From Giesbergeria sp. (lineage in GTDB: Bacteria > Pseudomonadota > Gammaproteobacteria > Burkholderiales > Burkholderiaceae_C): a DNA stretch of 53,494 bases. Of this stretch, positions 11,590 through 51,753 are shown one piece after another (the stretch's first letter is position 1; each line of letters opens with the position of its first letter). The translations under genes were made by a program, and so were the position numbers. Below the pieces are notes generated by a model. The model did no database searches. It was not told the DNA's origin and was given only the letters and a program-made list of their open reading frames with translations. The stretch lies in contig JAKLLE010000019.1 of the NCBI GenBank assembly GCA_023150295.1, positions 1-53,494 on the forward strand. Direction: 5' to 3'.

Positions 11590-11683
11590 CATAGCTGTCG
11601 GCGCTTGATAGCAAACGAAATCAGCATCAAATCATGCTGAAACCCAGGTAAATCAAGCGCGAACAGCTCCTCTTTTTGATAGC
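11590..11683. repeat. Dispersed Comamonadaceae-type repeat, copy R1 (two facing half elements)
   Basis: This stretch fills most of the gatA-gatB gap. It contains a 17-bp inverted repeat (11593-11609 with 11652-11668, two mismatches) built from the core ATAGCTG..GCGCTTGAT, and ends with CTTTTTGATAGC. Both outer parts match the repeat family seen eight more times in the window, but here two half copies face each other around an AT-richer centre. It separates the coding regions by 113 nt. Confidence 0.6.
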
Positions 11684-11698
11684 CAAGGACAGCTCTCC

Positions 11699-13147
11699 AT
11701 GTCTGCGAAACTGATCCACGGGTACGAAGTCGTCATCGGCTTCGAGACCCACACCCAGCTGGCCACGCACAGCAAGATTTTCAGCCGCGCCAGCACCGCC
11801 TTTGGCGCCGAGCCCAACACCCAGGCCTGCGCCGTGGATCTGGCCCTGCCGGGCACCCTGCCGGTGATGAACCGCGAGGCCGTGGCCTGCGCTATCAAAT
11901 TGGGATTGGCTCTAGGCTCCCACATTGCGCCCAAGAGCATTTTTGCGCGCAAAAACTACTTCTACCCCGACCTGCCCAAGGGTTACCAGATCAGCCAGTT
12001 CGAGATCCCGGTGGTGCAGGGCGGCGAGGTGAGCTTTTACCTGGGCGACGAGAAGAAGACCGTGCGCCTGGTGCGTGCGCACCTGGAGGAAGACGCGGGC
12101 AAGTCGCTGCACGAAGAGTTCCACGGCCAGAGCGGCATCGACCTGAACCGCGCGGGCACACCGCTGCTGGAGATCGTGACCGAGCCCGACATGCGCAGCA
12201 CCGAGGAGGCCGTGGCCTACGCCAAGGAACTGCACAAGATCGTTGCCTGGATCGGCATCTGCGACGGCAATATGCAGGAAGGGAGCTTTCGCTGCGACGC
12301 CAACGTGTCCGTGCGCAAACCCGGCCAGCCGCTGGGCACGCGGCGCGAGATCAAGAACCTCAACAGCTTCAAGTTCATGCAGCAGGCGATCGACTACGAG
12401 ACCCGCTGGCAGATCGAGGAGCTGGAGGATGGCCGCGCCATCGAGCAGGCCACGGTGCTGTTCAACCCCGACACGGGCGAGACGCGCGCCATGCGCACCA
12501 AGGAAGACGCGGCCGACTACCGCTACTTCCCCGACCCCGACCTGCCGCCGCTGGTGATCGCTCCCGAGTGGGTGGAGTCCACGCGCGCGCAGATGCCCGA
12601 GCTGCCCCGCGCCATGGCCGCACGCTTCGTGCAGGACTACGGCCTGCCCGAATACGACGCCACCACGCTCACGCAGAGCAAGGCCATGGCAGCGTACTTT
12701 GAAGCCGCCGCCCAGGCCAGCGGCCAGGCCAAGCTGGCCAGCAACTGGATCATGGGCGAGGTATCGCGGCGCCTGAACAGTGAGGAAACCGGCATCGAGA
12801 ACGCCAAGGTCGGCAGCGCAGCACTGGCCGCGCTGATCCAGCGCATCAGCGACGGCACCATCAGCAACAACGCGGCACGCCAGGTGTTCGATGCGCTGTG
12901 GAACGGCGAAGGCAGCGAGGTCGATGCCGTGATCGAGGCCAAAGGCCTCAAGCAGATAAATGACAGCGGCGCGCTGGAAAAGATCATCGACGAAGTGATC
13001 GCCGCCAACCCCGACAACGTGGCGCAGTTCAAGGCGGGCAAGGACAAGGCCTTCAACGCGCTGGTGGGCCAGATCATGAAAGCCAGCAAGGGCAAGGCCA
13101 ACCCGGCCCAGGTCAACGAGCTGCTGCGCAAGCGCCTGGAAGGCTGA
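11699..13147 (+). CDS. gatB: Asp-tRNA(Asn)/Glu-tRNA(Gln) amidotransferase subunit B
   Basis: This 482-residue subunit phosphorylates and amidates the mischarged tRNA. It starts with the family's [16 protein letters not shown] and contains [46 protein letters not shown] and the C-terminal GatB/Yqey tail domain ([15 protein letters not shown]). The length is normal. One short stretch around 11889-11926 uses AT-rich codons (TTG, GGA, CTA) unlike the rest of the gene, although the encoded IKLGLALGS is family-conserved. Confidence 0.97.
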
Positions 13148-13195
13148 AAACGATAGGGAGGGGCGAGGGCGGCAGTACGAGCCCCGCCCAAGGGC

Positions 13196-13885: not shown

Positions 13886-13889
13886 TGCA

Positions 13890-14588: not shown

Positions 14589-14600
14589 GGAGTGATTCCC

Positions 14601-15404: not shown

Positions 15405-15469
15405 TCTGCCACTCCCTCCTGGTTGCATGTTGTAACCTGTAGGGCTGTATCCACCGACGGCCCCACGCC

Positions 15470-17422: not shown

Positions 17423-17440
17423 GCCGCGCGGCAACGCGCG

Positions 17441-17939: not shown

Positions 17940-17998
17940 ATGTGAGCGAAAGTTGCGTGGCAGGCCCAGAAATAGAGCAGAAGACGCAAGGGTAGCGC

Positions 17999-18006
17999 AA
18001 TATATT
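17999..18006. promoter_or_regulatory. AT-rich palindrome in the lrp-rhtA divergent region
   Basis: AATATATT is a perfect palindrome within AAAATATATTGCG on the minus strand. It is the only AT-rich patch in the 73-nt divergent gap. It partly fits the degenerate Lrp consensus and contains a TATATT that could be the -10 of the exporter gene, only 6 nt before its ATG. Confidence 0.35.
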
Positions 18007-18012
18007 TTCTGC

Positions 18013-18924: not shown

Positions 18925-18965
18925 GGCCGACCCACCGGCCGCTTGCAACCCTGTCTTCCGCCACC

Positions 18966-19604
18966 ATGCTGCGCTACCTCACCGTTCCCGTCACGCCCTT
19001 CCAGCAAAACTGTTCCATCGTCTGGTGCGATGCCACCGGCCAGGCCGCCGTCATCGACCCGGGCGGCGACCTCGACATGCTGCTGGCAGAAATCCAGCGC
19101 CTGGGGCTCACGCTCAGCCAGATCTGGCTCACACACGCGCACATCGACCATGCCGGGGGCACGGGCGAGCTGGCCGAGCGCTTGCAGTTGCCCATCGTCG
19201 GGCCGCACCCGGGCGACCAGTTCTGGATCGATGGTCTGCCGCAGCAGAGCGCGATGTTCGGCTTTCCGCCCGCGCTGCACTTCACGCCCACGCGCTGGCT
19301 GCACGACGGCGACGAAGTGCAACTGGGCCAGGAGACGCTGCGCGTGCGCCACTGCCCAGGCCACACGCCGGGGCATGTGGTGTTCCACGCACCGCAGATC
19401 GAGCGCTGCTTTGTGGGCGACGTGCTGTTTGCCGGCAGCATCGGCCGCACCGACTTTCCGCAAGGCAACCACCAGCAGCTGATCGACAGCATCACCCAGC
19501 GCCTGTGGCCCATGGGCGACCAGACGGTGTTCATTCCCGGCCACGGGCCAGAGAGCACTTTCGGGCGCGAGCGGCGCAGCAACCCGTTTGTGGGCGGCAC
19601 CTGA
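18966..19604 (+). CDS. Metallo-beta-lactamase-fold hydrolase (YcbL / glyoxalase II-like)
   Basis: This 212-residue cytoplasmic hydrolase binds metal through THAHIDHAGG (HxHxDH, about residue 56), the later histidine in CPGHTPGHVVFH, the bridging aspartate in FVGDVLFAGSIGRTDFP, and the final GHGPESTFGRER. The size and the GSIGRTDFP motif match the YcbL subgroup, for which glyoxalase-II-like thioesterase activity has been reported. It follows rhtA by 41 nt and converges with the M48 protease, with a repeat filling the gap. Confidence 0.88.
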   Translation: MLRYLTVPVTPFQQNCSIVWCDATGQAAVIDPGGDLDMLLAEIQRLGLTLSQIWLTHAHIDHAGGTGELAERLQLPIVGPHPGDQFWIDGLPQQSAMFGFPPALHFTPTRWLHDGDEVQLGQETLRVRHCPGHTPGHVVFHAPQIERCFVGDVLFAGSIGRTDFPQGNHQQLIDSITQRLWPMGDQTVFIPGHGPESTFGRERRSNPFVGGT

Positions 19605-19613
19605 AAACTCAAG

Positions 19614-19669
19614 TCAATTTGGCCTCTAGCGCCCGTGAATAAAGCGCCAGTAGCTATCATTTCAATAGC
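19614..19669 (+). repeat. Dispersed Comamonadaceae-type repeat, copy R2
   Basis: The copy contains TTTGGCCTCTAGCGC, a short variable centre, then AAGCGCCAGTAGCTATCAT and a trailing AATAGC. It occupies nearly all of the 67-nt gap between two convergent genes, ending 2 nt before the M48 stop codon. The facing CTAGCGC and GCGCCAG motifs can form a short hairpin. Confidence 0.7.
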
Positions 19670-19671
19670 AT

Positions 19672-20520
19672 TCAACCATTCGGACGGGCGGCTTCGTACA
19701 GGCCCTGCACCTTGGGCAGGTTTTGCTGCAGTTCGCGGATGCGGTCGGGCCCGCTGGGGTGGGTGGAGAGGAAGGCCAGGCCGTCCTTGCCGCCTGTGGC
19801 CTGGCCCATCTTCTGCCACAGGCTCACGCTGGCGGCGGGCTGGTAGGCCGCGCGAGCGGCCAGCTCCAGGCCCACCAGGTCGGCCTCGCTCTCGTCGCCC
19901 CGGCTGAACTTGAGGGTGAGCAACTGCCCGCCCAGGTTGGCGGCCACCTGCCCCACGTCGCCCAGTCCCAGCAGCTGCGCGCCCAGGCGCAGACCCAGGT
20001 TGGTGGCCTGGGACTTGGCCAGGCGCTCACGGGCGTGTTCGCGCAGCGCGTGGGCCATTTCGTGGCCCATGATCATGGCGGCCTCGTCGTCGGTCAGGCG
20101 CAACTGGTCCAGGATGCCGGTGAAGAACGCTATCTTGCCCCCCGGCATGCAGAACGCGTTGATCTGCTTGCTGGCAATGAGGTTGACCTCCCAGCGCCAG
20201 TGGCGCGCACGGTCGTTCCACGGCGCGGTGAAGGGGATGAGGCGCCGTGCAATGGCGTGCAGGCGCGCAAGCTGCGGATGACCGGACGGCACCAGCGCCC
20301 CCTGCGCCCGGGCCTGGGCCAGCAACTGGCTGTACTGCTGGGTGGCCGAGGATTCCAGCGTTTCGGCAGGCACCAGGCGGCGCATGCCCGAGGCGGAGCC
20401 CACCTCCACCTGCGCCAGCGCGGGCGCAGCAGCCCCAGCGGCGGCAGCCAGCACAAAGGCACGCCGCGCCTGCCAGGGGGACGACGGGGCCACGGAAGGG
20501 GCGGGGCAAAGAAAGCACAT
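19672..20520 (-). CDS. M48-family metalloprotease, exported
   Basis: This 282-residue zinc protease carries HEMAHALREH (HExxH, about residue 141) and a downstream ESEADLVGLELAARA segment giving the third zinc ligand. Both are typical of the periplasmic BepA/LoiP/YcaL-type M48 proteases used in outer-membrane quality control. The N-terminus has ARRAFVLAAAAGAAAPALAQ, a signal peptide with a twin-arginine-like start. The frame is open much further upstream, but ATG 20520 is the one that opens this signal. It is divergent from the AmpG-like gene, 30 nt apart. Confidence 0.88.
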   Translation of the reverse strand: MCFLCPAPSVAPSSPWQARRAFVLAAAAGAAAPALAQVEVGSASGMRRLVPAETLESSATQQYSQLLAQARAQGALVPSGHPQLARLHAIARRLIPFTAPWNDRARHWRWEVNLIASKQINAFCMPGGKIAFFTGILDQLRLTDDEAAMIMGHEMAHALREHARERLAKSQATNLGLRLGAQLLGLGDVGQVAANLGGQLLTLKFSRGDESEADLVGLELAARAAYQPAASVSLWQKMGQATGGKDGLAFLSTHPSGPDRIRELQQNLPKVQGLYEAARPNG

Positions 20521-20550
20521 GCGGGAATAATAGTCAAAACACCGCACCCC

Positions 20551-21918
20551 ATGCCGCCCACCACCACGCCTTCTCCCAACGCAGCGCACCTGTCCTGGCT
20601 CCAGACGCTGCGCGTGTACCTCGAACCCGCCAGCCTGCGCATGCTGACGCTCGGCTTTTCGGCCGGGCTGCCGCTGCTGCTGGTGCTGGGCACGCTGAGC
20701 TTTCGCCTGCGCGAGGCGGGCATAGACCGCAGCACCATCGGGCACCTGAGCTGGGTGGGCCTGGCCTATGGGTTCAAATGGGCCTGGGCGCCGTTGGTGG
20801 ATCGGCTGCCGCTGCCACTGCTCACCCACGCACTGGGGCGGCGGCGCAGCTGGCTGCTGCTGTCGCAGTGCCTGGTGGTGGTGGGGCTGGTGGGCATGGC
20901 GCTGACCGACCCGCGCCAGGCGCTGGGCCCCGTGGTGGCCTGTGCGCTGATGGTGGCCTTCGCGTCGGCCACGCAGGACATTGCGCTGGACGCCTTCCGC
21001 ATCGAATCGGCCGACGCCAGCCACCAGGCCGCCCTGGCTGCCGCCTACCAGACGGGCTACCGGCTGGCGATGATCTGGGCCGGTGCCGGTGTGCTGTGGA
21101 TTGCTGCGCGTGCCGAGGCGCCCGCACTGGCGGGTGCGGCAGCCGCAGCGGCAGGCGCCGCGGCCTACCAGAACAGCGCCTGGCAGACGGCCTACCTGGT
21201 GATGGCGGCCTCCATGGCCGTGGGCATGGTCACGGTGCTGTTCTCGCGCGAGCCCCGGCCTGTGGAGCTGCCCCCGGCACGCAACGCCGCCGAATGGCTG
21301 CGCGGCGCGCTGCTGGAGCCGTTTGCCGACTTTGTGCGCCGTTACCGCTGGCAGGCGGCGCTGATCCTGGCGCTGATCGCCGTGTACCGCATCAGCGATG
21401 TGGTGATGGGCATCATGGCCAACCCCTTCTACGTGGACATGGGCTACACCAAGGACGAGGTGGCCGCCGTGACCAAGGTGTACGGCGTGGTGATGACGCT
21501 GGTCGGCGCCTTTGTGGGCGGCTCGCTCGCCATGCGCTTTGGCGTGATGCGCATCCTGATGCTGGGCGCCCTGCTGAGCGCCTGCACCAACCTGCTGTTT
21601 GCCTGGCTGGCGGGCCATGGGCACGATGTAACGGCGCTCATCGCCGTGGTCTCTGCCGACAACCTGGCCAGCGGCATTGCGTCGGCGGCCTTCATTGCCT
21701 ACCTCTCCAGCCTGACCAACGTCAGCTATTCGGCCACACAATACGCGCTGTTCAGCTCGATGATGCTGCTGCTGCCCAAGTTCGTGGCGGGCTTTTCGGG
21801 CGACTACGTCAACGCCTTTGGCTACGCACAGTTCTTTGCGTCCACCGCATTGCTGGGCCTGCCGGTGCTGGGACTGGTGTGGATAGCATCCAAGGCCAAA
21901 TCGGCCTCCAGCGCCTAA
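20551..21918 (+). CDS. ampG: AmpG-like MFS permease (muropeptide uptake family)
   Basis: This 455-residue polytopic protein of the major facilitator superfamily has about 12 hydrophobic helices. AmpG-type features are LGFSAGLPLLLVLGTLSFRL near the start, GLAYGFKWAWAPLVDRLPLP, a SATQDIALDAFRIE segment and NPFYVDMGYTKDEVA. AmpG imports anhydro-muropeptides for cell-wall recycling, which would suit the neighbouring envelope protease. Its last codons and stop lie inside repeat copy R3, so the C-terminal SASSA comes from the repeat. Confidence 0.82.
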   Translation: MPPTTTPSPNAAHLSWLQTLRVYLEPASLRMLTLGFSAGLPLLLVLGTLSFRLREAGIDRSTIGHLSWVGLAYGFKWAWAPLVDRLPLPLLTHALGRRRSWLLLSQCLVVVGLVGMALTDPRQALGPVVACALMVAFASATQDIALDAFRIESADASHQAALAAAYQTGYRLAMIWAGAGVLWIAARAEAPALAGAAAAAAGAAAYQNSAWQTAYLVMAASMAVGMVTVLFSREPRPVELPPARNAAEWLRGALLEPFADFVRRYRWQAALILALIAVYRISDVVMGIMANPFYVDMGYTKDEVAAVTKVYGVVMTLVGAFVGGSLAMRFGVMRILMLGALLSACTNLLFAWLAGHGHDVTALIAVVSADNLASGIASAAFIAYLSSLTNVSYSATQYALFSSMMLLLPKFVAGFSGDYVNAFGYAQFFASTALLGLPVLGLVWIASKAKSASSA

Positions 21919-21951
21919 TACATAAGCGCAAGCAGCTATAAAATACATAGC
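21898..21951 (+). repeat. Dispersed Comamonadaceae-type repeat, copy R3 (supplies ampG stop)
   Basis: The copy reads AAATCGGCCTCCAGCGCC then TAA (the stop of the AmpG-like gene), a short centre and AAGCGCAAGCAGCTATAAAA with trailing ATAGC. It matches copies R2 and R9 closely. The element begins inside the coding sequence, so the protein's final residues are repeat-encoded. Confidence 0.7.
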
Positions 21952-22072
21952 AAAAATAACCGTGAAGCTGCGCCACGTTTACCTGTGCTTTACGCCCAGG
22001 ACAAGGAGACATGACAGGTAGCAGGCATGATGCCCCCATCCTCCCACCCTGAGCACCCCCTTTGCTGACGCC

Positions 22073-22789: not shown

Positions 22790-22790
22790 T

Positions 22791-22850
22791 GTGAACACCC
22801 CCCTGCGTCGCTTCGCGCCTTCCCCCCTCTCCTGCGGGAGGGGGGACGAC
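22791..22850. repeat. GC-rich hairpin repeat, copy S1
   Basis: GTGAACACCCCCCTG, then CGCGCCTTCCCCCCTCTC and GGGAGGGGGGACG, is shared with copy S2 at 49881. The stem pairs 22821-22829 with 22838-22846 plus inner pairs. It begins right after the response-regulator stop and lies between it and its kinase, where it could attenuate or stabilise the transcript. Similarity may continue to about 22905 but is weaker there. Confidence 0.6.
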
Positions 22851-34895: not shown

Positions 34896-34906
34896 GGTGA
34901 TTTCAA

Positions 34907-34963
34907 GCAAAAAGTGCTTCCAGCGCTTATCTACCTTGCGCAAGTAGCTATCAAAACAGGAGC
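34907..34963 (+). repeat. Dispersed Comamonadaceae-type repeat, copy R4
   Basis: The copy reads AAAAAGTGCTTCCAGCGCTT, then a short centre and TTGCGCAAGTAGCTATCAAA. It fills the gap between the aminotransferase stop (1 nt away) and the mmsA start, so it lies in the intercistronic message of a two-gene operon, in antisense orientation to it. Confidence 0.7.
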
Positions 34964-34964
34964 A

Positions 34965-36329
34965 TCAAGCCGTTTCTTGCAAGGCGTCGCCCAGGGCGCT
35001 GACCAGGCGGTCGATCTCGGCCTCGGTGCTGATGAACGGCGGCGCGAGCTGGATGGTGTCGCCACCGTAGCGCACATAAAAGCCCTTGTCCCAGCACTTT
35101 ATGGCGATCTCGTAGGGGCGCCTGGCGGGTTCGCCGGGCACGGCAGCGATGGTGATGCCTGCGGCCAGGCCGTAGTTGCGGATGTCGGCCACATGCTTGG
35201 CCCCTTTCAGGCCGTGCACGGCGTTCTCGAAATACGGCGCCAGCGCGCGCGCGCGCCCGGGCATGTCTTCCTTGTGCAGGATGTCGAGCACCGCGTTGCC
35301 CGCCGCGCAGGCCACGGGGTGGGCCGAGTAGGTGTAGCCGTGCGGGAACTCCAGCAGGTACTCGGGGCCGCCCTGCGCCATGAAGGTGTCGTAGATCTCT
35401 TTGCTGGCGATCACGCCGCCCAGGGGCTGCGCGCCGTTGGTCACCTGCTTGGCGAAGTTCAGGATGTCGGGCGTCACGCCAAAGGCCTCGGCCCCGGTCC
35501 AGGTGCCGCAGCGGCCAAAGCCGGTGATCACCTCGTCAAAAATCAGCAGGATGTTGTTCTGCGTGCAGATCTCGCGGATGCGTTCCAGGTAGCCCTTTGG
35601 CGGGATCACCACGCCCGCCGATCCCGAGAAGGGCTCGACGATCAGGGCGGCGATGTTGCTCGCGTCGTGCAGCGCAATCACGTCCAGCAGCTTGTCGGCC
35701 AGCTGGCGGCCACCGTCCTCGGCCATGCCCTTCTGAAAGGTGCCCGCAGGCGGCTGGGTGTGGGGAATGTGGTCGGCCTCGATGCCCTGGCCGAACAGCT
35801 TGCGGTTGCCCACGATGCCGCCCACCGAGATGCCGCCGTAGTTCACGCCGTGGTAGCCCTTCTCGCGGCCAATCAGGCGCGTCTTGGTGCCCTGGCCCTT
35901 GGCGCGCCAGTAGGCGCGCGCCATCTTGAGCGAGGTGTCGGCCGATTCGGAGCCGGAGCCTGTGAAGAACACATAGTCCAGCCCGGCAGGCGTCAGCTCC
36001 TTGAGCTTGTTCGCCAGCGCGAACGAGGCCGGGTGGCCGAACTGGAAGGCGGGCGAATAGTCCAGCGTGGCGGCCGCCTTGCCAATGGCCTCGGCCACTT
36101 CCTTGCGGCCATGGCCCAGGCCCGAGCACCACAGGCCCGAGAGGCCGTCAAATATCTTGCGCCCTTCGGCGTCGGTGTAATAGGCGCCCTCGCCGCTCAC
36201 GATCATGCGCGGCCTGGCCTTGAAGTTGCGGTTGCCGGTGAAGGGCATCCAGTGGGCATCGAGCCAGGCGGCATCCTGCCGCACAGCAGGTGCGGTGGCG
36301 TCGATGGCGGCAAACGGCGGCGTGGTCAT
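34965..36329 (-). CDS. bauA: Omega-amino acid (beta-alanine):pyruvate aminotransferase
   Basis: This 454-residue class III PLP aminotransferase transfers the amino group of beta-alanine or similar omega-amino acids to pyruvate. Conserved segments are WMPFTGNRNFKARPRMIV, GLSGLWCSGLGH, FFTGSGSESADTSLKMARAYWR, GYHGVNYGGISVGGI, LLIFDEVITGFGRCG and FAKQVTNGAQPLGGVIAS (PLP lysine). These match Pseudomonas BauA as I remember it. GGAG 8 nt before ATG 36329 fixes the start; the frame opens 20 codons earlier. The product semialdehyde is the mmsA substrate, and a LysR gene is divergent. Confidence 0.93.
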   Translation of the reverse strand: MTTPPFAAIDATAPAVRQDAAWLDAHWMPFTGNRNFKARPRMIVSGEGAYYTDAEGRKIFDGLSGLWCSGLGHGRKEVAEAIGKAAATLDYSPAFQFGHPASFALANKLKELTPAGLDYVFFTGSGSESADTSLKMARAYWRAKGQGTKTRLIGREKGYHGVNYGGISVGGIVGNRKLFGQGIEADHIPHTQPPAGTFQKGMAEDGGRQLADKLLDVIALHDASNIAALIVEPFSGSAGVVIPPKGYLERIREICTQNNILLIFDEVITGFGRCGTWTGAEAFGVTPDILNFAKQVTNGAQPLGGVIASKEIYDTFMAQGGPEYLLEFPHGYTYSAHPVACAAGNAVLDILHKEDMPGRARALAPYFENAVHGLKGAKHVADIRNYGLAAGITIAAVPGEPARRPYEIAIKCWDKGFYVRYGGDTIQLAPPFISTEAEIDRLVSALGDALQETA

Positions 36330-36367
36330 GGCGGTCTCCTGCGGTGATCCGGCATTGTTCCGCCAAG

Positions 36368-36395
36368 TGATATTCTCTTGAATAGTCAAATATCA
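36368..36395. promoter_or_regulatory. Candidate LysR operator in the bauA-lysR divergent region
   Basis: TGATATT (36368-36374) and AATATCA (36389-36395) are perfect inverted arms 14 nt apart in an AT-rich patch. GTCAA (36385-36389) and TTGAC (36402-36408 region) form a second overlapping pair. LysR-type regulators bind such dyads in the promoter region between themselves and their target gene, which is the layout here. Confidence 0.5.
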
Positions 36396-39282: not shown

Positions 39283-39288
39283 GCAAAC

Positions 39289-39342
39289 GCTATAAAAACA
39301 ATAGCTGCTGGCGCAGGAGGGATGAGCGCCAGAGGCCAAAAA
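39289..39342 (-). repeat. Dispersed Comamonadaceae-type repeat, copy R5
   Basis: Read on the minus strand it gives TTTTTGGCCTCTGGCGCTCA, a short centre, and GCGCCAGCAGCTATTGTTT with trailing TATAGC. It fills half of the gap between the SPFH stop and the DUF4178 start. The two GCGCCAG/CTGGCGC motifs can pair as a 7-bp stem. Confidence 0.7.
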
Positions 39343-39385
39343 CCTCATAAGACCGCAGCGCGCGGCGCCAGCAGCAGCCCCCAGC

Positions 39386-42102: not shown

Positions 42103-42154
42103 CCCCCCGACCTGAGCCCCTTGTTCACCCCGCACCGCCCGACTGCCCCGCTCC

Positions 42155-43795
42155 ATGCCCACGCTTGACTGGCTCAACCGCTCTGCCGCCTTCACCACCG
42201 CAGCCCAGGTGCCCTACCGGCTGCTGGACACCGTTTCCACCCATGGCGATGCCGCGCAGGCGCAGCAGAACCTGCTGATCCAGGGCGACAACCTGCAGGC
42301 CCTCAAGGCCCTGCTGCCGTTTTACCGGGGCCGGGTGAAGTGCATCTTCATCGACCCGCCGTACAACACGCAAAGCGCGTTCGAGCACTACGACGACAAC
42401 CTGGAGCACAGCCAGTGGCTCAGCATGATGCTGCCGCGCCTGCAACTGCTGCGCGAGCTGCTGAGCGAGGACGGATCGATCTGGGTGACCATCGACGACA
42501 ACGAGGGGCATTACCTCAAGGTGTTGATGGATGAAGTGTTTGGGCGGAGGAATTTCATTGCCACTATCGCTTGGGAAAAGGACAAGGGTGGGCGAGGGGA
42601 CGCGGATATCTCTACGTCGCAGGACATGATCCTCGCCTACGCAATGCAGCGAAGACGATGGGCGGAAACACGGAACTTGATTGAACGCACGGATGTGCAA
42701 GCTGGCCGCTTTAGAAATCCTGATAACGACCCGCGCGGTCCGTGGCGACAAGGGGATGACGGCACAGCAAAGAGCGGCACCGAAAAGCAGCGATTTCCTA
42801 TCGTTCTACCATCGGGAAGATCTGTCGTTCCAAAAGCCGGACGGTTTTGGGCCTTCTCGCAAGAAACATTTGAGCGGGCACGCGCGGAGGGGCGTGTGTA
42901 TTTCGGAAAGAACGGCGATCGCTTGCCAGTCATCAAGCGCTATGCGGACGTTGTTAGGGAGGGCGTTGCACCTCGCACTTGGTGGACGGCAGAAGAAGCA
43001 GGAACCAATCAAAGTGCGAAAAGAGACCATCTCTCCAAGATGTTTCCGGGTTTGGAGCCATTTGCCACCCCAAAGCCTGAGCAGCTATTGCAGCGCATCC
43101 TCCATATCTCTTCCAACCCAGACGACCTCGTCCTCGACAGCTTCCTAGGCTCCGGCACCACCGCCGCTGTCGCCCAAAAAATGGGCCGCCGCTGGATCGG
43201 CATCGAAATGGGCGAGCACGCCGCCACGCACTGCCTGCCCCGGCTGGAGAAGGTGGTGGCGGGCGAGCCGGGCGGTATCAGCCAGGCGGTGGCTTGGCAG
43301 GGCGGCGGCGGCTTTCGCTTTGCGCGCCTGGGCGCGCCCGTCTTTGATGCGCAAGGCTGCATCCACCCCGAGGTGCGCTTTGCCACGCTGGCGGCCTTTG
43401 TCTGGCAGCAGGAGACGGGCACCGCCTTCGAGCCCGCCAACGGCCAGGCGGGCACGCCCTGGCTCGGCACGCACTCTGTTTTTGATAGCTGCTCACGCTT
43501 GCCTGATGCGCCTGAAGTGGCAATTTCACCTGAAATTGCGCCCCCCGAGCCGGTGCTGCGCAGCCGCACGGCCTACTACCTGCTGTTCAACGGCATCCTG
43601 GGCGACAAGCGCCCGGCCAGCGGCAATGTGCTCACGCGCGCGGTGCTCGATGCGCTGCTGCAACTGCATGCCGCCACGCCCCACCCCGATGCGCCGCTGG
43701 TGGTCTATGGCGAGGCCAACCGCCTCGGCCCCGAAACCCTGTCTCGCGCACGGGTGACGTTCAAGCACATTCCGTATGACGTGAAGGCGAGGTGA
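42155..43795 (+). CDS. mod: Type III restriction-modification DNA methyltransferase (Mod)
   Basis: This 546-residue beta-class N4/N6 amino-methyltransferase has the catalytic motif IDPPYN (about 66-71) first and the SAM-binding motif LDSFLGSGTTAAVAQ (about 327) second, the order typical of type III Mod subunits. It modifies the recognition site and directs Res. The central target-recognition region (42540-43140) is clearly lower in GC and uses different codons from both flanks, a sign of domain exchange. Near the C-terminus it contains repeat R6 in frame. It is somewhat shorter than many Mod proteins. The next gene starts 3 nt after its stop. Confidence 0.92.
   Translation: MPTLDWLNRSAAFTTAAQVPYRLLDTVSTHGDAAQAQQNLLIQGDNLQALKALLPFYRGRVKCIFIDPPYNTQSAFEHYDDNLEHSQWLSMMLPRLQLLRELLSEDGSIWVTIDDNEGHYLKVLMDEVFGRRNFIATIAWEKDKGGRGDADISTSQDMILAYAMQRRRWAETRNLIERTDVQAGRFRNPDNDPRGPWRQGDDGTAKSGTEKQRFPIVLPSGRSVVPKAGRFWAFSQETFERARAEGRVYFGKNGDRLPVIKRYADVVREGVAPRTWWTAEEAGTNQSAKRDHLSKMFPGLEPFATPKPEQLLQRILHISSNPDDLVLDSFLGSGTTAAVAQKMGRRWIGIEMGEHAATHCLPRLEKVVAGEPGGISQAVAWQGGGGFRFARLGAPVFDAQGCIHPEVRFATLAAFVWQQETGTAFEPANGQAGTPWLGTHSVFDSCSRLPDAPEVAISPEIAPPEPVLRSRTAYYLLFNGILGDKRPASGNVLTRAVLDALLQLHAATPHPDAPLVVYGEANRLGPETLSRARVTFKHIPYDVKAR
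43478..43526 (-). repeat. Dispersed repeat copy R6, in frame inside mod
   Basis: TTTTTGATAGCTGCTCACGC, then TTGCCTGATGCGCCTGAAG and TGGCAATTT, is the minus orientation of the family. It is translated as VFDSCSRLPDAPEVAI and adds a segment to Mod without breaking the frame. Confidence 0.65.
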
Positions 43796-43798
43796 GGG

Positions 43799-45523
43799 AT
43801 GAAGGACGTTACGGGCGACTTTCTGGATGAACTTCGACGCATGGCCACGGAGACGGAATGGCTGGAGTTCAAGCGTGCCGGACAAACGTTCAGCTTTGAC
43901 CAAATGGCGCAGTACGTCTCTGCGCTGGCCAACGAAGCCAATCTGCACCGTCGCGAAGAGGGCTGGCTGGTCATGGGTATTGATGACAGGCTGGAGGCAG
44001 CCACCGGTATGCGCCCGGCGATCGGAACAGAGTTTGCACGCTCATTGCCTGAGCTCAACCGGATCAGAGAGTCGGTGGCTGCCCAAACGGCACCAGCCGT
44101 CGTTTTGCATCCCCCTTATGAACTGGAAGTGGCCCGACCAAACGGAGCGCCAGCGCGGGTGCTTCTGTGGCGTATTCCGGCTGCGCCCCGAGGGGTGCCG
44201 GTCTCTTGCAAGGGCCACTACTGGGGGCGCAATGGTGAGAAGCTGTGCGGGCTGCCCTTGCACAAGCTTGATACCTTGCGCGCGCAATCGGCGCTGCACG
44301 ATTGGTCTGCAGCGGTGGTCACGCACGATTGGACACTGCTGTCGGCGCCCGCCGTTGCCAGGGCTCGGGAGCTGTACGCGCGTCGTTACGCCAGCAAGCC
44401 CGATATCGTCAAAGAGATGCTGGAGCAGACGGATGCGCAGTTTTTGCATTCGCTGCGGTTGGCCGTCCATGGTGGCCTGACGCGGGCTGCACTGGTGCTC
44501 CTCGGCCAGCCAACGGCTGCCAGCCAGCTGGGCGGGCCCACGCCACGCATCAGCTGGCAGTTGCTGGACCACCGGGGCGATCCTGTCACGCACCAGCATT
44601 TCGGGCTGCCGCTGCTGTCATCCATTGACGCCTTGATTGCCCGCATCCGCATCATTGAGATCAACATCTTGCCGCCGCGTGAGGTGGCGCCGCTGAACCT
44701 GCCCAATTACGACGATTGGGTGCTGCGCGAAGCCTTGCATAACTGCGTAGCGCACCAGGATTACACACAGGGCGGGCGCATTTTGGTGACGGAGGGGCCC
44801 GACACGCTGCGTTTCTTCAACTATGGAGAGTTTCTGCCCGGATCGCTGGACAAGGTTTTGCATGCGCAGCAGCCCGAACAGCGCTACCGCAATGCCTGCC
44901 TGGCCGATGCGATGGTGGAGCTGGACTTGATGGAGACCCTCAACCGTGGCGTGAAAGGAATGTTCCGCAAGCAAAAGGAGCGCTTCTTCCCGCTGCCCGA
45001 TTACGACATCGTCGGACAACCTGCATCCGTTAGCGTCATGCTGTATGGCCGCGTCCTGGACAAGGGGTACGTCGACGCCTTGATGACGAACAGCGACCTC
45101 AGCCTTGAAGACGCCGTGCTGCTTGACCAGGTTCAAAAGGGGCGCCAGCCACCGGCGAGCCAATTGCGGCGTCTGCGTGCCAAGGGTTTGGTCGAGGGGC
45201 GCAGCCCCAGGCTGCGGATCTCCGCACAGGTGGCGGTTGCAATGGGGCAAGAGGTGGCTTACCTCAATCAAAAAGGCCCGTCCGTTGAGGACTGCAAAAA
45301 GGCGGTGTGCGATTTGCTCGCCTTGGCGCCCCAGCCTCGCACCAAGATCGATGACCGGTTAATGCCCAGCTTGATGCTGTGGATCCCCGGGGCGTCGGAG
45401 CGCAAAAAGTACATCAAGGAACTGCTAGCCGACATGGCGCGGCAGGGGACGATTCGCAATATTGGCAAACCGACCCGTGGGGCTGTTTGGGCGCTAGTTG
45501 CGCCAATGAGTCCCGGCGCTTAG
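43799..45523 (+). CDS. AlbA_2-domain ATP-binding protein (putative regulator) within the R-M locus
   Basis: This 574-residue protein starts with an AlbA_2/Schlafen-type domain (about 18-140, TEWLEFKRAGQTFSFDQMAQYV...GWLVMGIDD). A central region matches the HATPase_c_4 domain typical of 'ATP-dependent DNA helicase RecG-like / transcriptional regulator' annotations (about 300-410, WVLREALHNCVAHQDYTQGG). Winged-helix-like C-terminal segments follow (VLLDQVQKGRQPPASQLRRL). Such proteins are found in defence loci, but the exact role is unknown. It lies between mod and res with a 3-nt gap from mod. The GC content is lower than that of flanking genes. Confidence 0.85.
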   Translation: MKDVTGDFLDELRRMATETEWLEFKRAGQTFSFDQMAQYVSALANEANLHRREEGWLVMGIDDRLEAATGMRPAIGTEFARSLPELNRIRESVAAQTAPAVVLHPPYELEVARPNGAPARVLLWRIPAAPRGVPVSCKGHYWGRNGEKLCGLPLHKLDTLRAQSALHDWSAAVVTHDWTLLSAPAVARARELYARRYASKPDIVKEMLEQTDAQFLHSLRLAVHGGLTRAALVLLGQPTAASQLGGPTPRISWQLLDHRGDPVTHQHFGLPLLSSIDALIARIRIIEINILPPREVAPLNLPNYDDWVLREALHNCVAHQDYTQGGRILVTEGPDTLRFFNYGEFLPGSLDKVLHAQQPEQRYRNACLADAMVELDLMETLNRGVKGMFRKQKERFFPLPDYDIVGQPASVSVMLYGRVLDKGYVDALMTNSDLSLEDAVLLDQVQKGRQPPASQLRRLRAKGLVEGRSPRLRISAQVAVAMGQEVAYLNQKGPSVEDCKKAVCDLLALAPQPRTKIDDRLMPSLMLWIPGASERKKYIKELLADMARQGTIRNIGKPTRGAVWALVAPMSPGA

Positions 45524-45626
45524 CCAATTCTTTTCCAATGAAAAATTAAAAACCCTTATAAATCAATTGCTTGCATTGGCGCATTGGCTAAAGATCGCCA
45601 AAATTTGCGCCAATTCAATCCAATCC
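45499..45626. promoter_or_regulatory. AT-rich region with repeated TGCGCCAAT motifs upstream of res
   Basis: TGCGCCAAT occurs at 45499-45507 and 45606-45614, and its reverse complement at 45575-45583; the last two form a 9-bp inverted repeat. A longer direct repeat, GCCAATTC plus TCCAAT, is at 45523-45540 and 45610-45626. This is the only AT-rich gap within the R-M locus, so it is a good candidate for the res promoter and an operator. Confidence 0.5.
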
Positions 45627-45628
45627 CC

Positions 45629-48322
45629 ATGACCCCCATCACCCTCAAGACCTACCAGCAAGCCGCCCTGGACACCCTGGCCGGTTTCGCCCGTACGGCG
45701 CGCCTGCAAGGGGCTGCGCAGGCGTTTGCGTCGCTGGCGGGCCGCCCTTACCAGGCAGATGCTTTTGGCGAGGTGCCCTGCGTGTGTCTGCGCGTTCCCA
45801 CGGGCGGCGGTAAGACCGTGCTGGCCGCGCACGCCGTGCCGATGCTGGCGCGCGCGTGGGCGGCCGTGGATGCACCCGTGGCGCTGTGGCTGGTGCCCAG
45901 CGATGCGATCCGCACGCAAACCCTCAAGGCGCTGCAAACGCCCGGCCACCCCTACCGCGCCGCGCTGGCCGACGCCTACGGCGAGGGCCTGCGCGTGTGC
46001 GCGCTCGAAGACGTGGCGCAGATCGCCGCGCCCGAGTGGGGCCGCAACGCCGTCGTGGTGGTGGCGACGATCCAGAGCTTTCGCGTCGAGGATGCGGGCC
46101 AGCGCAACGTGTACAGCTTTTCCGAGAGCTTCGAGCCCCATTTCAGGGGCGTGGACGGTCGCGCCCTGGCGTGCCTGCAGAATCTGCCCGACGCGCTGGT
46201 CGCGCCCGAGGATGTGGCGCGCGACACCACGGGCGTGCTGGCGGGCTTTGTGGGGCAGCCACGCTGGAGCCTGGCCAACTGGCTGGCGCTGCACCGGCCC
46301 CTGGTGATCGTGGACGAGGCGCACAACACCAAGACGGACAAGAGCTTCACGGCGCTGCAGCGGCTGAACCCCTCGCTCATCCTGGAGCTGACCGCCACAC
46401 CGATTGCCGCCAAGACCAATGTGCTGTACCACGTGAGCGCGCAGGAACTGGCCGCCGAGGACATGATCAAGCTGCCCATCGTGCTGGCAGAGCACCCCGA
46501 AGGCTGGCCCGCCGCCGTGTTTGGCGCGGTGCAGACGCAACGCAAGCTGGAGGCAGAGGCGCTCAAGGACGAAGCCGATGGCCATGGCTATGTGCGTCCC
46601 ATCGTGCTCTTTCAGGCGCAGAACGAGGGGGACGAAATGCCGCCTGAGAAGCTGCGCAACTATCTGGTGAATGAGCTGCAATTGCCCGCCAACCAGATCG
46701 TGGTGGCCACCGGCAAGGAGCGCGGCTTGGACGACATCCACCTCGCTGCGCGCGACTGCCCGGTGCGCTACGTCATCACCGTGCAGGCCCTGCGCGAGGG
46801 CTGGGACTGCCCTTTTGCCTACGTGCTGTGCAGCCTGCAAAAGCTCAGCAGCGCCACGGCGGTGGAGCAGTTGCTGGGCCGCGTACTGCGCATGCCCCAT
46901 GCCCAGCGGCGCGGGCGCGAGGCGCTCAACCGTGCCTACGCCCATGTGTGCGCGGCCGAGTTCTCGCAGGCCGCGCATGCGCTGGCGGACCGGCTGATAC
47001 AGCACATGGGCTTCGAGGCGCTGGATGTGGCCTCGATGATCGCACCGCCTTCGGCGCTGCCACTGTGGAGTGATTTGGAGCCAAATCAGCCTGCAGCGCC
47101 CGTCATTCAAGCGCCGATAGCTACTGTTTTTGAAGCACCCAGCGCCACGCCAGAGCTGTTGGCCTTGCCCGGCGTGCAAGTGCAGACCATGGCAGGAATG
47201 CCGCAGGTGGTGGTGGCGGGCCACATTGGCCAGGACACCGAAGCACTGCTGCTGGCCCAGGTGCGCGGCGCCAAAAAGCAAGAGCAGGTGCGTGAGCAGG
47301 TGGCGCAGCACAACGCACTGGTGGCGGCACAGGCGGCGCCCGCTTCGCGCGGCACGCCCTTCGCGCCACTGCCCCGGCTGGCCTACCGCACGGCAGCGCA
47401 GGCGCCGCTGTGGCCGCTGGAGCGCGAGGCGGTGCTGGAAGAGATGGAGCTGGATTTGCTGCAGCCCCAGGCCGTGCAGTTGCCGGGTTTTCACGCCGCC
47501 CAGGAGGCGGAGTTGTTTGAAATTGGTATGCAGAACGCCCGTGTGACGCTGCGCCATGCCGACAGCACCCAGATGGCCATGGACTGGATCAGCAGCAGCA
47601 TCGACGCACCCACGCTGGTGGGCTGGCTGGACCAGTTGCTGTTCAAGGCCCCCGATCTGGCGGGACTGACACAAGGCGAGCGACGCGCCTACCTGGCGGC
47701 GGTGGTGAACCACCAGTTGCACACCTGCGGCGTGCCGCTGGTGGTGCTGGCACAGGCACGCTTTCGCCTGGCGCGCGACATCGAATCGCATGTAGCCCAG
47801 TTACGCCAAACGGCAGCACAGCGCACGTTCCGGCAAAAGGTGCTGGCCCAGGGCGATGGCAGCGCCTGGCTGGTAGAGCCCGACTGGGCACACCCCCATG
47901 TGTTCGAGCCGGGCCGGTATCCGGTGCCCGTGGCTTCGCGCTACAGCGGGCGCTACCAGTTTGGCAAGCACTACTTCCCGGTGCTGGCCGATCTGAAGGA
48001 CGGTGGGCAGGAGTTCCAGTGCGCGCAACTCATAGACCGCCACCAGCGCGTGCGCCACTGGGTGCGCAACCTCGACACGGCGCCCTGCGGCTTTGGCCTG
48101 CCCACGTCGCGCGGGCGCTTTTACGCCGATTTTGTGGCCGAGCTGCTGGACGGGCGCGTGGCGCTGCTGGAGTTCAAAGGCGCGCATCTGATGAACGATC
48201 CCTACGAAATCGAGAAACGCCAGGTCGGAGAGCTGTGGGCGCGCACCAGCAGCAATCGCGCCGTGTTTGGCTGGCTGAGCTATGAGGGCTTGGCGCAGCA
48301 ACTGGACACGGCACTGGCATGA
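45629..48322 (+). CDS. res: Type III restriction enzyme, Res subunit (DEAH helicase-nuclease)
   Basis: This 897-residue protein has superfamily 2 helicase motifs: PTGGGKT (about 57), DEAH (about 228), TATP (about 254) and a C-terminal helicase half with LREGWDCPFAYVLCSLQKLSSATAVEQLLGR around residues 390-420 (motif VI region). A PD-(D/E)xK nuclease core, ADFVAELLDGRVALLEFKG (about 832-850), sits near the C-terminus. It needs Mod for site recognition. ATG 45629 is preferred to a TTG 45 nt upstream. Repeat R7 is in frame in the middle linker. Its stop overlaps the next gene by ATGA. Confidence 0.92.
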   Translation: MTPITLKTYQQAALDTLAGFARTARLQGAAQAFASLAGRPYQADAFGEVPCVCLRVPTGGGKTVLAAHAVPMLARAWAAVDAPVALWLVPSDAIRTQTLKALQTPGHPYRAALADAYGEGLRVCALEDVAQIAAPEWGRNAVVVVATIQSFRVEDAGQRNVYSFSESFEPHFRGVDGRALACLQNLPDALVAPEDVARDTTGVLAGFVGQPRWSLANWLALHRPLVIVDEAHNTKTDKSFTALQRLNPSLILELTATPIAAKTNVLYHVSAQELAAEDMIKLPIVLAEHPEGWPAAVFGAVQTQRKLEAEALKDEADGHGYVRPIVLFQAQNEGDEMPPEKLRNYLVNELQLPANQIVVATGKERGLDDIHLAARDCPVRYVITVQALREGWDCPFAYVLCSLQKLSSATAVEQLLGRVLRMPHAQRRGREALNRAYAHVCAAEFSQAAHALADRLIQHMGFEALDVASMIAPPSALPLWSDLEPNQPAAPVIQAPIATVFEAPSATPELLALPGVQVQTMAGMPQVVVAGHIGQDTEALLLAQVRGAKKQEQVREQVAQHNALVAAQAAPASRGTPFAPLPRLAYRTAAQAPLWPLEREAVLEEMELDLLQPQAVQLPGFHAAQEAELFEIGMQNARVTLRHADSTQMAMDWISSSIDAPTLVGWLDQLLFKAPDLAGLTQGERRAYLAAVVNHQLHTCGVPLVVLAQARFRLARDIESHVAQLRQTAAQRTFRQKVLAQGDGSAWLVEPDWAHPHVFEPGRYPVPVASRYSGRYQFGKHYFPVLADLKDGGQEFQCAQLIDRHQRVRHWVRNLDTAPCGFGLPTSRGRFYADFVAELLDGRVALLEFKGAHLMNDPYEIEKRQVGELWARTSSNRAVFGWLSYEGLAQQLDTALA
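47081..47136 (+). repeat. Dispersed repeat copy R7, in frame inside res
   Basis: CCAAATCAGCCTGCAGCGCC, a short centre, then CAAGCGCCGATAGCTACTG and TTTTTGAAGC follow the family pattern. It is translated as PNQPAAPVIQAPIATVFEA, a Pro/Ala-rich insert between the helicase and nuclease parts. Confidence 0.65.
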
Positions 48323-49878: not shown

Positions 49879-49880
49879 TG

Positions 49881-50058
49881 GTGAACACCCCCCTGTGGCG
49901 CTGCGCGCCTTCCCCCCTCTCTCGAATCGCTGCGCGATTCGGGAGGGGGGACGCTCCCGGCGCGGCGGGGCGGCCCTTGCGCGGGAGCCCTGGGCTGGGT
50001 CGCGCCGGTTTTGTGCAGCAGGGGCACTGCCACCGGCACTTGCGCTTGGGCTGCTAAA
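49881..50058. repeat. GC-rich hairpin repeat, copy S2
   Basis: GTGAACACCCCCCTG, CGCGCCTTCCCCCCTCTC and GGGAGGGGGGACG match copy S1. Here the hairpin is longer because CGAATCGC pairs with GCGATTCG inside the C-run/G-run stem (49920-49952). It fills the gap between the synthase stop and the oxidoreductase start. The part after 49960 is GC-rich with no ORF and may be repeat tail. Confidence 0.6.
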
Positions 50059-50061
50059 GCC

Positions 50062-51753
50062 ATGCAGCGCCGCCAGTTCCTCACCGCTGCCACCTCGGCC
50101 GCCACGGCACTGCTGTCGGCAGGGTGTGAGCCTGCACCACGGGCGCTGCAGGGCGGTTTTGCGGGCATCGACCTGGAGCGTGGGCACCAGGTGCGCGATC
50201 TGCTGGCGCGCGGTGCGCTGCCTGCGCCGGGGCTGGTGCGGCGTGCGCAGGTGGTGATTGCGGGGGGCGGCGTGGCGGGGCTGGCGGCGGCGCGGGCGCT
50301 GCGCCTGGCGGGGGTTCATGATTTTGTGCTGCTGGAGCTGGAGGACCAGCCCGGCGGCAACAGCCGGGCCAGCGCCGTGAACGGCGTGCCCTGCCCCATG
50401 GGCGCGCACTACCTGCCCGTGCCCGGCAACGACGCCCGCGAGGTGCAAGACCTGCTGGAAGAACTGGGCCTGCGCCAGCGCGTGGCCGGGCGCTGGCAGT
50501 ACGACGAACGCCACCTGTGCCACAGCCCGCAGGAGCGGCTGTTCTTTCAGGGCCAGTGGCAAGAAGGCCTGCTGCCCCAGCAGGACGTGGACGAGCGCAC
50601 GCTGGCGCAATACCGGCGCTTTGCACGCCAGGTGCAGGCCCTGATGCAGTCGGTGCGCTTTGCCATGCCCATGCTCAAGACTTTTGAATCAAAAAGACCT
50701 CTGGCGCCCGTCCATCAAGCGCTGGATGCTATGACTTTTGAAGCTTGGCTGGGCACCCACGGCTACGACGACCCGCACCTGCGCTGGTACCTGGACTACT
50801 GCTGCCGCGACGACTACGGCGCGGGCACGGCGCGCGTGTCGGCCTGGGCGGGCATCCACTACTTTGCCAGCCGCCACGGCTTCCATGCCCCGGGCGAGCC
50901 GATGGACGAAGCGCGCGAAGCCGTGCTCACCTGGCCCGAGGGCAACGGCTGGCTCACCCAACGCCTGGCCGCACCGCTGCGCGCGGGTGGGCAGCTGCGC
51001 ACCGGCTGCAGCGTGCTGCGCATTGCCCAGGGGCGCCACGGCGTGGAGGTGGATGCGCTGCACCACGCCAGCGGCACGGTGGAGCGCTGGCAGGCACCGC
51101 GTTGTGTCGTGGCGTTGCCGGTGTTTGTGGCGGCGCGCGTGGTGCAGCCCGCGCCCGCCTTCCTGCAGGCCGCCGCCCAGCGCCTGCACTGGGCGCCCTG
51201 GCTGGTGGCCAACATCCACCTCGACGCACCGCTGCAGGACCGCCCCGGCGCCGCGCCCGCGTGGGACAACGTGCTCTACCAGGACGCCAATCCCGGCGGC
51301 CTGGGCTATGTGGACGCCGGCCACCAGCGCCTGAACACCGGCGCCCTGATCGCTGCACCCACGGTGCTGAGCTACTACCAGGCGCTGGGCGACCAGCCCC
51401 AGGGCCGCGAACAACTGGCGAGCCAGCCCTGGATGCACTGGGCCCAGGCCGCACTGGACGCACTGGCGGTGCCCCATCCCGACCTGGCGCACCGCGCCTC
51501 GCGCGTCGACATCACCCGCTATGGCCACGCCATGGCCATCCCGGTTCCGGGACAGCTTGCTTTTTTGAGTCAAATTGGCCTCCAGCGCTTTACAGGCAAG
51601 CGCAAGCAGCTATCAAATGGTGAGCGAAATCGGTGGCTGCCCACGCCCGCCACGGCCCGGCTGGCGTTTGCGCACGCCGACTGGTCGGGCTACTCGGTGT
51701 TCGAGGAAGCCTTCACGCGCGGGCACGCGGCGGGACTGGCGGTGTTGACCTGA
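50062..51753 (+). CDS. FAD-dependent amine-oxidase-like oxidoreductase, Tat/lipoprotein signal
   Basis: This 563-residue flavoprotein starts MQRRQFLTAATSAATALLSA then GC, combining a twin-arginine-type start with a lipobox cysteine (residue 22). It is therefore probably exported folded and anchored as a lipoprotein. The FAD motif VVIAGGGVAGLAAARAL (about 72-88) is followed by the flavin-amine-oxidase ELEDQPGGNSRAS. It ends with HADWSGYSVFEEAFTRGHAA, the usual FAD-contact helix. It follows the spermidine-synthase-like gene, so an oxidised polyamine or derived product is a plausible substrate; this is inference. Two repeat copies (R8, R9) lie in frame. Confidence 0.85.
   Translation: MQRRQFLTAATSAATALLSAGCEPAPRALQGGFAGIDLERGHQVRDLLARGALPAPGLVRRAQVVIAGGGVAGLAAARALRLAGVHDFVLLELEDQPGGNSRASAVNGVPCPMGAHYLPVPGNDAREVQDLLEELGLRQRVAGRWQYDERHLCHSPQERLFFQGQWQEGLLPQQDVDERTLAQYRRFARQVQALMQSVRFAMPMLKTFESKRPLAPVHQALDAMTFEAWLGTHGYDDPHLRWYLDYCCRDDYGAGTARVSAWAGIHYFASRHGFHAPGEPMDEAREAVLTWPEGNGWLTQRLAAPLRAGGQLRTGCSVLRIAQGRHGVEVDALHHASGTVERWQAPRCVVALPVFVAARVVQPAPAFLQAAAQRLHWAPWLVANIHLDAPLQDRPGAAPAWDNVLYQDANPGGLGYVDAGHQRLNTGALIAAPTVLSYYQALGDQPQGREQLASQPWMHWAQAALDALAVPHPDLAHRASRVDITRYGHAMAIPVPGQLAFLSQIGLQRFTGKRKQLSNGERNRWLPTPATARLAFAHADWSGYSVFEEAFTRGHAAGLAVLT
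50682..50743 (+). repeat. Dispersed repeat copy R8, in frame inside the oxidoreductase
   Basis: TTTTGAATCAAAAAGACCTC, then TGGCGCCCGTCCATCAAGCG and CTGGATGCTATGACTTTTGA, a degenerate family copy. It is translated as KTFESKRPLAPVHQALDAMT. It is more diverged than R9 in the same gene, so it is probably older. Confidence 0.55.
51561..51620 (+). repeat. Dispersed repeat copy R9, in frame inside the oxidoreductase
   Basis: GTCAAATTGGCCTCCAGCGC, a short centre, then CAAGCGCAAGCAGCTATCAA, an almost consensus copy. It is translated as FLSQIGLQRFTGKRKQLSNG, a basic loop unlike the surrounding Ala-rich protein. Confidence 0.75.

Follow-up and report, generated by a model that had tools for sequence, protein, structure and literature searches.

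The stretch analysed here, 53,494 nucleotides of Giesbergeria sp. (assembly GCA_023150295.1, contig JAKLLE010000019.1, positions 1 to 53,494) and hereafter called the window, carries nine copies (R1 to R9) of a dispersed repeat, and this analysis concerns that repeat and its relation to a Y1/HUH transposase, the repetitive extragenic palindrome (REP)-associated tyrosine transposase (RAYT). The nine copies had been noted in a sequence-only reading of the window, and all of them were re-found within about 15 bases of their earlier positions by an nhmmer profile seeded with 62 exact-core copies from the host genome (G000). The E values ran from 7.9e-17 (R2) to 0.0031 (R6), and the half-copy R1 was the weakest, at 0.014. 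In the same search the reversed sequence gave no match at E ≤ 10. The copies lie as follows (ORF, open reading frame).

R1: 11578..11611, minus strand; half-copy (right half) between gatA and gatB, with the amidase and gatB identified by Pfam/NCBIfam; E 0.014
Near R1: 11655-11683, plus strand, opposite to R1; second right-half-like stretch, seen by eye, coordinates by string search
R2: 19609..19673, plus strand; full copy filling the convergent gap between an ORF ending at 19604 and the M48 peptidase ORF ending at 19672; E 7.9e-17
R3: 21892..21954, plus strand; full copy adjoining or overlapping the 5' end of the M48 peptidase ORF (19672-21948, minus strand), upstream of an ORF at 22073 (plus strand); E 6.7e-14
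R4: 34900..34967, plus strand; between an aminotransferase ORF (34965-36389, minus strand) and a methylmalonate-semialdehyde dehydrogenase ORF (33378-34943, minus strand), both by NCBIfam; E 9.4e-14
R5: 39286..39346, minus strand; directly after an ORF ending at 39282; E 1.4e-11
R6: 43474..43535, minus strand; weak copy inside an N6/N4 DNA methyltransferase ORF (42155-43795, Pfam); E 0.0031
R7: 47073..47137, plus strand; inside a ResIII-type helicase ORF (45584-48322, Pfam), translated as PNQPAAPVIQAPIATVFEA; E 1.1e-8
R8: 50682..50743, plus strand; inside an amine oxidase ORF (50062-51753), translated as ESKRPLAPVHQALDAMTF in the repeat frame of R7; E 3.7e-7
R9: 51562..51630, plus strand; in the same amine oxidase ORF as R8 but in a different repeat frame, translated as LSQIGLQRFTGKRKQLSNGER; E 3.8e-16

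Five copies had been placed at gene ends. R1, R2, R4 and R5 do lie between genes or at gene ends, and the near-complete filling of the gap at 19614 was seen again as R2. R3 adjoins or overlaps the 5' end of the M48 ORF, where the Pfam match on the minus strand disagrees with the gene prediction and the true start of the ORF is not settled, and R6 to R9 lie inside ORFs with Pfam matches. On the whole, the observation made in the sequence-only reading was confirmed and its interpretation was partly supported. Consecutive ORFs for a DNA methyltransferase, an AlbA_2 (Schlafen-like) protein and a ResIII helicase occupy 42155-48322, with R6 and R7 inside two of them, and this row is possibly a restriction or defence cluster. 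A 41-bp direct repeat of 93% identity (GTGAACACCCCCCTG...) at 22791-22831 and 49881-49921 is unlike the repeat family.

Copy number and anatomy of the repeat

A strict pattern of the repeat matched 137 times in the 3.69-Mb host genome and never when read backwards. The matches were divided between the plus (70) and minus (67) strands, which bears out the two orientations described before. Profile counts were obtained from a 453-kb host sample made up of the window and twenty 20-kb stretches, all from contigs with strict matches and enriched for them (35 against 17 expected from 137 in 3.69 Mb). At E ≤ 0.01 the sample gave 73 matches, or 70 once overlapping opposite-strand matches were dropped; eight of these are in the window, R1 being above the limit. 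Scaled by the strict count, this corresponds to about 270 copies in the host genome, a few hundred and not the thousands that the reading had named as support. The window is denser in repeats than the genome, with 5 strict matches against about 2 expected.

The consensus is about 68 bp long, exceeding the 50-60 bp first given, and reads ATTT..AG..AAAT.GGCCTCYAGCGC, 11 nt, GCGCNAG[C/T]AGCTAT, 7 nt, ATAGCA, with a second small inverted repeat, GCTAT-n7-ATAGC, at its right end. The 11-nt spacing between the GCGC arms is near-constant (97 of the 100 host strict matches listed), while the spacer sequence, that is, the centre of the repeat, is near random. In samples of seven genomes (60-453 kb each), 60 of 67 spacers had 11 nt when up to 20 nt were allowed, and in 19 other right halves no GCGC lay within that distance. 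Columns 46-49 read GCAG in 33, GTAG in 14 and ATAG in 9 of 67 copies and adjoin a weak inverted repeat of 4-5 bp. The mean GC content of the repeat was 44%, compared with 66% in the host sample and 62% in host intergenic DNA. In genome G161, the strict pattern occurs on both strands at C1:514859-514897 and 724383-724421, like two inverted right halves.

A hairpin between the facing GCGC cores had been suggested. The arms are conserved, but a selected hairpin is not supported: pairing over the two stems was found in 73.7% of cells against 75.1% in shuffles, without stem covariation. The pairing of only 20-42% when stem partners were slid by 1-3 columns is explained by the conserved letters of GCGC and GCTAT/ATAGC, for which sequence conservation alone suffices. 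An RNA structure was rejected on the same stem pairing and on RNAalifold, which retained 3 pairs. Rfam covariance models gave no match at the copies at E ≤ 5, and a match at 9176-9237 was discarded, being under the gathering score and distant from the copies. No publication was recognised as describing this repeat in a search that left most subscription journals and all bioRxiv preprints outside, so that its novelty is unproven; the names sought had no mention in the available parts of PMC3733652 and PMC6006769.

Distribution, placement and coding copies

The association with Comamonadaceae proposed in the sequence-only reading is borne out by both genomes and loci. Of 150 family genomes, 22 (from 19 of the 141 genera) had at least 10 strict matches, 27 had 1-5 and 101 had none. 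Sixteen genomes from other families of the order had 0-2 each, and counts in 24 genomes of the genus, some incomplete, extended from 0 (G005) to 143 (G001). Around the amine oxidase gene, 80 named loci (1.51 Mb) contained 168 profile copies at E ≤ 0.01, R9 orthologues included, and the same loci reversed gave no match at E ≤ 0.1. Several copies were present in many loci of Acidovorax, Simplicispira, Rhodoferax, Curvibacter and Extensimonas. None was present in 2 Variovorax, 3 Delftia, 1 Ottowia thiooxydans, 1 Ramlibacter and 5 of 6 Paracidovorax loci or in a few of Acidovorax, Giesbergeria and Comamonas, where "none" refers to the single locus and not to the genome. The nearest homologues of the window's amine oxidase belong to Acidovorax defluvii, Simplicispira, Giesbergeria and one groundwater genome. 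G056, which has the most strict matches of the 150, contains a local tandem of near-identical copies with a 165-bp period (L205:18214-18616). No recent dispersal was seen in the seven genome samples. One query copy matched 24 plasmid records and no phage record, and the strict pattern was present in 76 viral-contig stretches.

It is very improbable that the repeat is the Beta-proteobacterial repeat element (BRE) of Bordetella and a few Comamonadaceae. The available part of PMC3110155 does report BRE from Polaromonas, Acidovorax, Delftia and Rhodoferax, where it lies between genes and at times in coding sequence. The same text gives it 75-91 bp, 69% GC in Bordetella, an arrangement that can be tandem and at most 29 copies per genome at the authors' threshold, whereas the repeat here, about 68 bp long with 44-53% GC, is mostly single and exceeds 100 copies per genome; the two are set apart by description. 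In addition, the repeat was not found in the three Delftia loci.

The 70 host copies were placed with a purpose-written codon-based gene prediction, not a standard caller, which conflicts with the Pfam match at R3. Half of them (35) were intergenic, 17 lay over gene ends and 18 inside predicted genes, a low genic share against a coding fraction of 0.845 (p 9e-28). Copies often adjoin stop codons, and divergent gaps are depleted of them (4 of 48, p 0.02). One codon phase prevails in the genic copies, in 5 of 7 on the gene strand and 9 of 11 antisense (14 of 18, p 1.4e-4 against one third, the dominant phase having been picked after the fact). In G045, the full match list showed no replication-strand bias (25+/19- vs 17+/23-, p 0.27).

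Presence/absence differences, which the reading had named for strains, were found here between genera, at R5 and R9. The R5 site is filled in many Acidovorax-related loci. It is empty in one Rhodoferax, two Variovorax and one Ramlibacter locus, where the gap is shorter than that of the window by 56-91 bp; the gap is 36 bp shorter in an Ottowia and 30 bp shorter in a Paracidovorax locus. Among 40 amine oxidase homologues aligned of the 80 loci fetched, most of those from Comamonadaceae keep the R9 peptide LSQIGLQRFTGKRKQLSNGER, a Variovorax homologue is without about 20 residues there, and two Rhodoferax homologues are shorter after it. R8 is gap-free in most aligned homologues, and its status as an insertion is therefore less certain. 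Three aligned sites showed no terminal inverted repeats or target duplication, with flanks too diverged to fix the element ends.

The copies might instead be functional sites, bound by a nucleoid protein or gyrase or stabilising mRNA 3' ends, that are held by selection while their mobility is long past. The near-constant spacing around a random centre, the depletion in divergent gaps and the low GC content would suit such sites. Nevertheless, we regard this as quite unlikely. At orthologous intergenic sites, consensus columns changed 0.62 times as often as variable columns (99 pairs, 10 query copies), and inside genes the ratio was 0.56 (1818 pairs); both are above 0.5, the neutral floor expected for consensus-matching query copies, and constraint on the repeat at these sites was not supported. 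Moreover, 101 of the 150 family genomes do without a single strict copy.

The repeat has also entered coding frames and integron cassettes. A third repeat frame, neither that of R7 and R8 nor that of R9, matches positions 1-21 of DUF1010 (PF06231), with 14 bits for one copy against a cut-off of 25. At E ≤ 1, with the best 150 candidates per genome scored, so that high counts are possibly low, PF06231 matched at least 67 times in G000, at least 102 in G161 and at least 103 in G113; four genomes in which the strict pattern occurs 0-1 times gave 4, 7, 11 and 18 matches. Most single matches were below the cut-off and many contained stops; among 14 control genomes, 11 had matches at E ≤ 1 and none above the cut-off. 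Frames covering the whole of DUF1010 occur in clusters in G161, G113 and G005. The array in G161, with a 320-bp period, 5.8 copies and the repeat in its units, appears to be made of integron cassettes. In a Klebsiella plasmid, a repeat-bearing DUF1010 frame is flanked by aadB and a YciI gene, with intI1 nearby. Of the 24 matching plasmid records 20 were listed, and in 17 of these DUF1010 lies beneath the match. Frames starting with the repeat thus make up the G161 array and are found as an integron cassette of enterobacterial resistance plasmids (L345:13823-15682; L346, L347; L335:1944-2189). Since the start of DUF1010 matches the translated repeat, this Pfam family should be read cautiously.

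The RAYT gene and its 3' flank

A REP-associated Y1 transposase linked to the repeat had been named as a supporting observation, and such a gene was found, with a link on its 3' side only. A Y1_Tnp search of 26 genus genomes gave one gene in most, with a frame of mostly 234-270 aa, and a 14-row profile detected RAYT, mostly as a single copy, in 142 of 150 family genomes (133 of 141 genera). The profile also found the RAYT of the sister species G003, which PF01797 had missed. In the genus loci, where the stretch read reaches it, the gene precedes an ORF starting ATGACCACGGC. The presence of Y1 as a predictor of repeats was rejected, RAYT being present in many repeat-free genomes too.

We analysed 57 RAYT loci (59 were given, and 2 were not matched by the motif used), of which two without a repeat count were excluded from the box tally. 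An AT.(T)G[T/A]CCC box was present in 54 of the 55 remaining 3' flanks. GCTAT preceded the G[T/A]CCC box at the right distance in 30 of 55; of the 21 flanks whose genomes have fewer than 10 repeats, 10 showed it. The combination GCTAT-n-AT-n-G[T/A]CCC did not occur in the 453 kb of host DNA. With the flanks anchored solely on the GCT[A/C] that precedes the TGTCCC box, repeat columns 12-48 scored a mean of -1.5 in the true register, while the 16 other shifts tested gave -26 to -58; among the 57 flanks 24 were usable, 12 of them positive (one from a repeat-free genome) and 12 not. With nhmmer (E ≤ 0.05 for 0.1 Mb), the repeat itself was detected in 8 of 57 3' flanks, in gene orientation and at most 20 nt from the first base of the stop codon, one copy having an overlapping weaker match on the other strand. 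These eight copies end at model columns 59-63, running into the TGTCCC box.

A miniature inverted-repeat transposable element (MITE) of an unrelated, since-lost transposase could have spread long ago, one copy landing behind RAYT as behind many genes. Copies often adjoin stop codons, so that one behind RAYT would not be improbable beforehand, and both the repeat-free genomes with RAYT and the want of a consistent inverted partner on its 5' side agree with this. We nonetheless hold such an origin to be unlikely, because the GCTAT...TGTCCC box is retained behind RAYT even where the genome has few repeats or none, and the eight copies extend into that box. No terminal inverted repeats or target duplication were seen at the three aligned sites, though the element ends could not be fixed there.

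Some RAYTs have lost the residues for cutting. In an alignment with TnpArep (4er8), HMH lies opposite NHFH of these proteins and Y opposite the Y of MVYIDLNP; we take HMH and Y of TnpArep to be the catalytic residues. The only RAYT detected in the host genome has SRYH and VGMDLAP, without the first HUH histidine and the presumed catalytic tyrosine, and that of G003 has SRYH and VGLDLAP. The RAYT of G177, a genome with 319 strict matches, has SQFH and SFDLAP, and G169 retains HFH with S replacing Y. In total, H/H/Y was lost in 4 of 74 sequences (G000, G003, G177 and G169), a non-random set picked by score or repeat count in which L103 and L290 represent one gene. The frame of G136 is open, but neither motif was recognised in it, and it was excluded from the tree. 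Open-frame RAYTs without the first HUH histidine and/or the presumed tyrosine were seen at L072:1126-1824 (-), L193:952-1650 (-), L192:840-1538 (+) and L195.

In the tree, G000 and G003 form one clade (support 1.0), while G177 groups with intact members (0.91 and 0.98), so the cutting residues were lost separately. The dN/dS between G000 and G003 was 0.10 (dS 1.44, near saturation), similar to the 0.07-0.17 of six pairs with intact sites. No second RAYT match was found in G000 or G003 at E ≤ 1e-20, and G000 has one Y1_Tnp match overall. When the three residue-less proteins were compared with 399 family genomes, no further close member appeared, the score dropping from 452 to 394 bits, to an intact protein. 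The residue-less RAYT thus seems to be maintained for something besides cutting. The host copies are probably immobile now. We tentatively suggest, as a possible but rather doubtful reading, that RAYT survives as a nuclease-dead host protein under purifying selection, both in the lineage of the window and, by a separate change, in one or more other genera, and that it putatively still binds the hundreds of repeats that it spread. If true, a former transposase would now serve as a DNA-binding factor across the genome, with the repeats as its sites.

Origin of the repeat and comparison with known systems

Based on the near-universal RAYT, the in-register match in part of its 3' flanks, the GCTAT...TGTCCC box, the REP_Tyr_transpos match and the empty sites in sister genera, we lean towards the view that the repeat is a REP-like non-autonomous element of Comamonadaceae, spread long ago by the family's RAYT. 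The repeat corresponds to the segment from the stop codon to the conserved TGTCCC box of this usually single-copy gene, and the direction would have been from the RAYT end to the dispersed repeat. The ancestral RAYT, acting on single-stranded DNA, may have copied elements carrying the features it putatively recognised, namely GCGC-11-GCGC followed by G[C/T]AG and the small GCTAT...ATAGC arm. Copies would have been placed in gaps at gene ends and less often in genes tolerating a stop-free frame, and drift between rare copying events could have left a random centre and no near-identical copies. Because the host RAYT lost its catalytic residues, the host copies would since have been inherited and decaying, or co-opted as coding or 3'-end sequence.

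Several results weigh against the RAYT origin. The link is confined to the 3' flank; on the 5' side the repeat was found in 5 of 56 searched loci, on mixed strands and with no consistent inverted partner. Different palindromes, GGGGTCAGA, flank RAYT in inverted orientation, upstream in 27, downstream in 55 and on both sides in 26 of the 57 loci. Gene order around RAYT is shared in the stretches read, so the 57 flanks do not count as independent trials, and a single ancestral insertion behind the gene could mimic the link. Some genomes carry an intact RAYT without repeats. The only NCBIfam match for two scanned proteins, REP_Tyr_transpos (NF047646), scored 79 and 68 bits, just below the cut-off of 80. 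Finally, the stems pair no better than shuffles, and the core identity of copies more than 1 kb apart averaged 54-65% in the seven genome samples; near-identical dispersed copies like those of REPINs were not seen, pairs of at least 85% identity occurring in the host only (3 of 2210, from the 69 copies lying wholly inside their stretch).

The GGGGTCAGA palindrome is rare in the host sample (2 in 453 kb), and many RAYT genes (among L058-L110 and L191-L204) are bracketed by inverted GGGGTCAGA / TCTGACCC palindromes. These, rather than the dispersed repeat, fit the usual two-sided RAYT flank.

To our knowledge, the benefit of RAYTs to their hosts is not settled. The family offers a near-universal betaproteobacterial RAYT, repeats abundant in some genera only and natural residue-less RAYTs, one with a signal of purifying selection, and is thus a ready comparison for asking about roles of RAYTs besides copying.

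Among known systems, the Rickettsia palindromic elements likewise lie in frame within genes and become parts of proteins, a likeness of description. They occur in a different host, whereas the repeat studied here is mostly intergenic and has a link to a transposase. DUF1010 resembles the repeat in that its first 22 or so positions match the translation in one frame and one cassette-borne protein of the family carries the repeat at the DNA level. It differs in having 66 positions, of which most dispersed copies match the start only, mostly below the cut-off and in a frame often with stops. BRE, in the portion of PMC3110155 at hand, is similarly a dispersed repeat of Bordetella and Comamonadaceae, intergenic and sometimes coding, and is set apart by the length, GC content, tandem arrangement and copy number reported there.

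The closest likeness is to the REP/RAYT (TnpAREP) systems of Escherichia, Pseudomonas and Stenotrophomonas. It comprises the high copy number (137 strict matches, about 270 in total) and the tendency to lie at gene ends. A Y1 transposase of the REP_Tyr_transpos type, whose 3' flank holds the repeat in some of the genomes, and a G[C/T]AG box at the base of a small inverted repeat are shared as well. In contrast, here the repeat is on the 3' side of RAYT only, the unit is longer and asymmetric, the genome samples hold no near-identical dispersed copies, and about a quarter of the sampled copies are inside predicted genes. REP/RAYT pairs were described mostly from gammaproteobacteria, and, as far as the accessible text goes, qualifying RAYTs occurred only there, with Thauera as an acquired exception (Nunvar 2010; PMC2817692). 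In the rows seen of PMC8049555, REPIN transposition rates are about 4e-9 to 9e-9, and single REPs are considered there to be immobile remnants, which fits the old, diverged single copies of the repeat described here.

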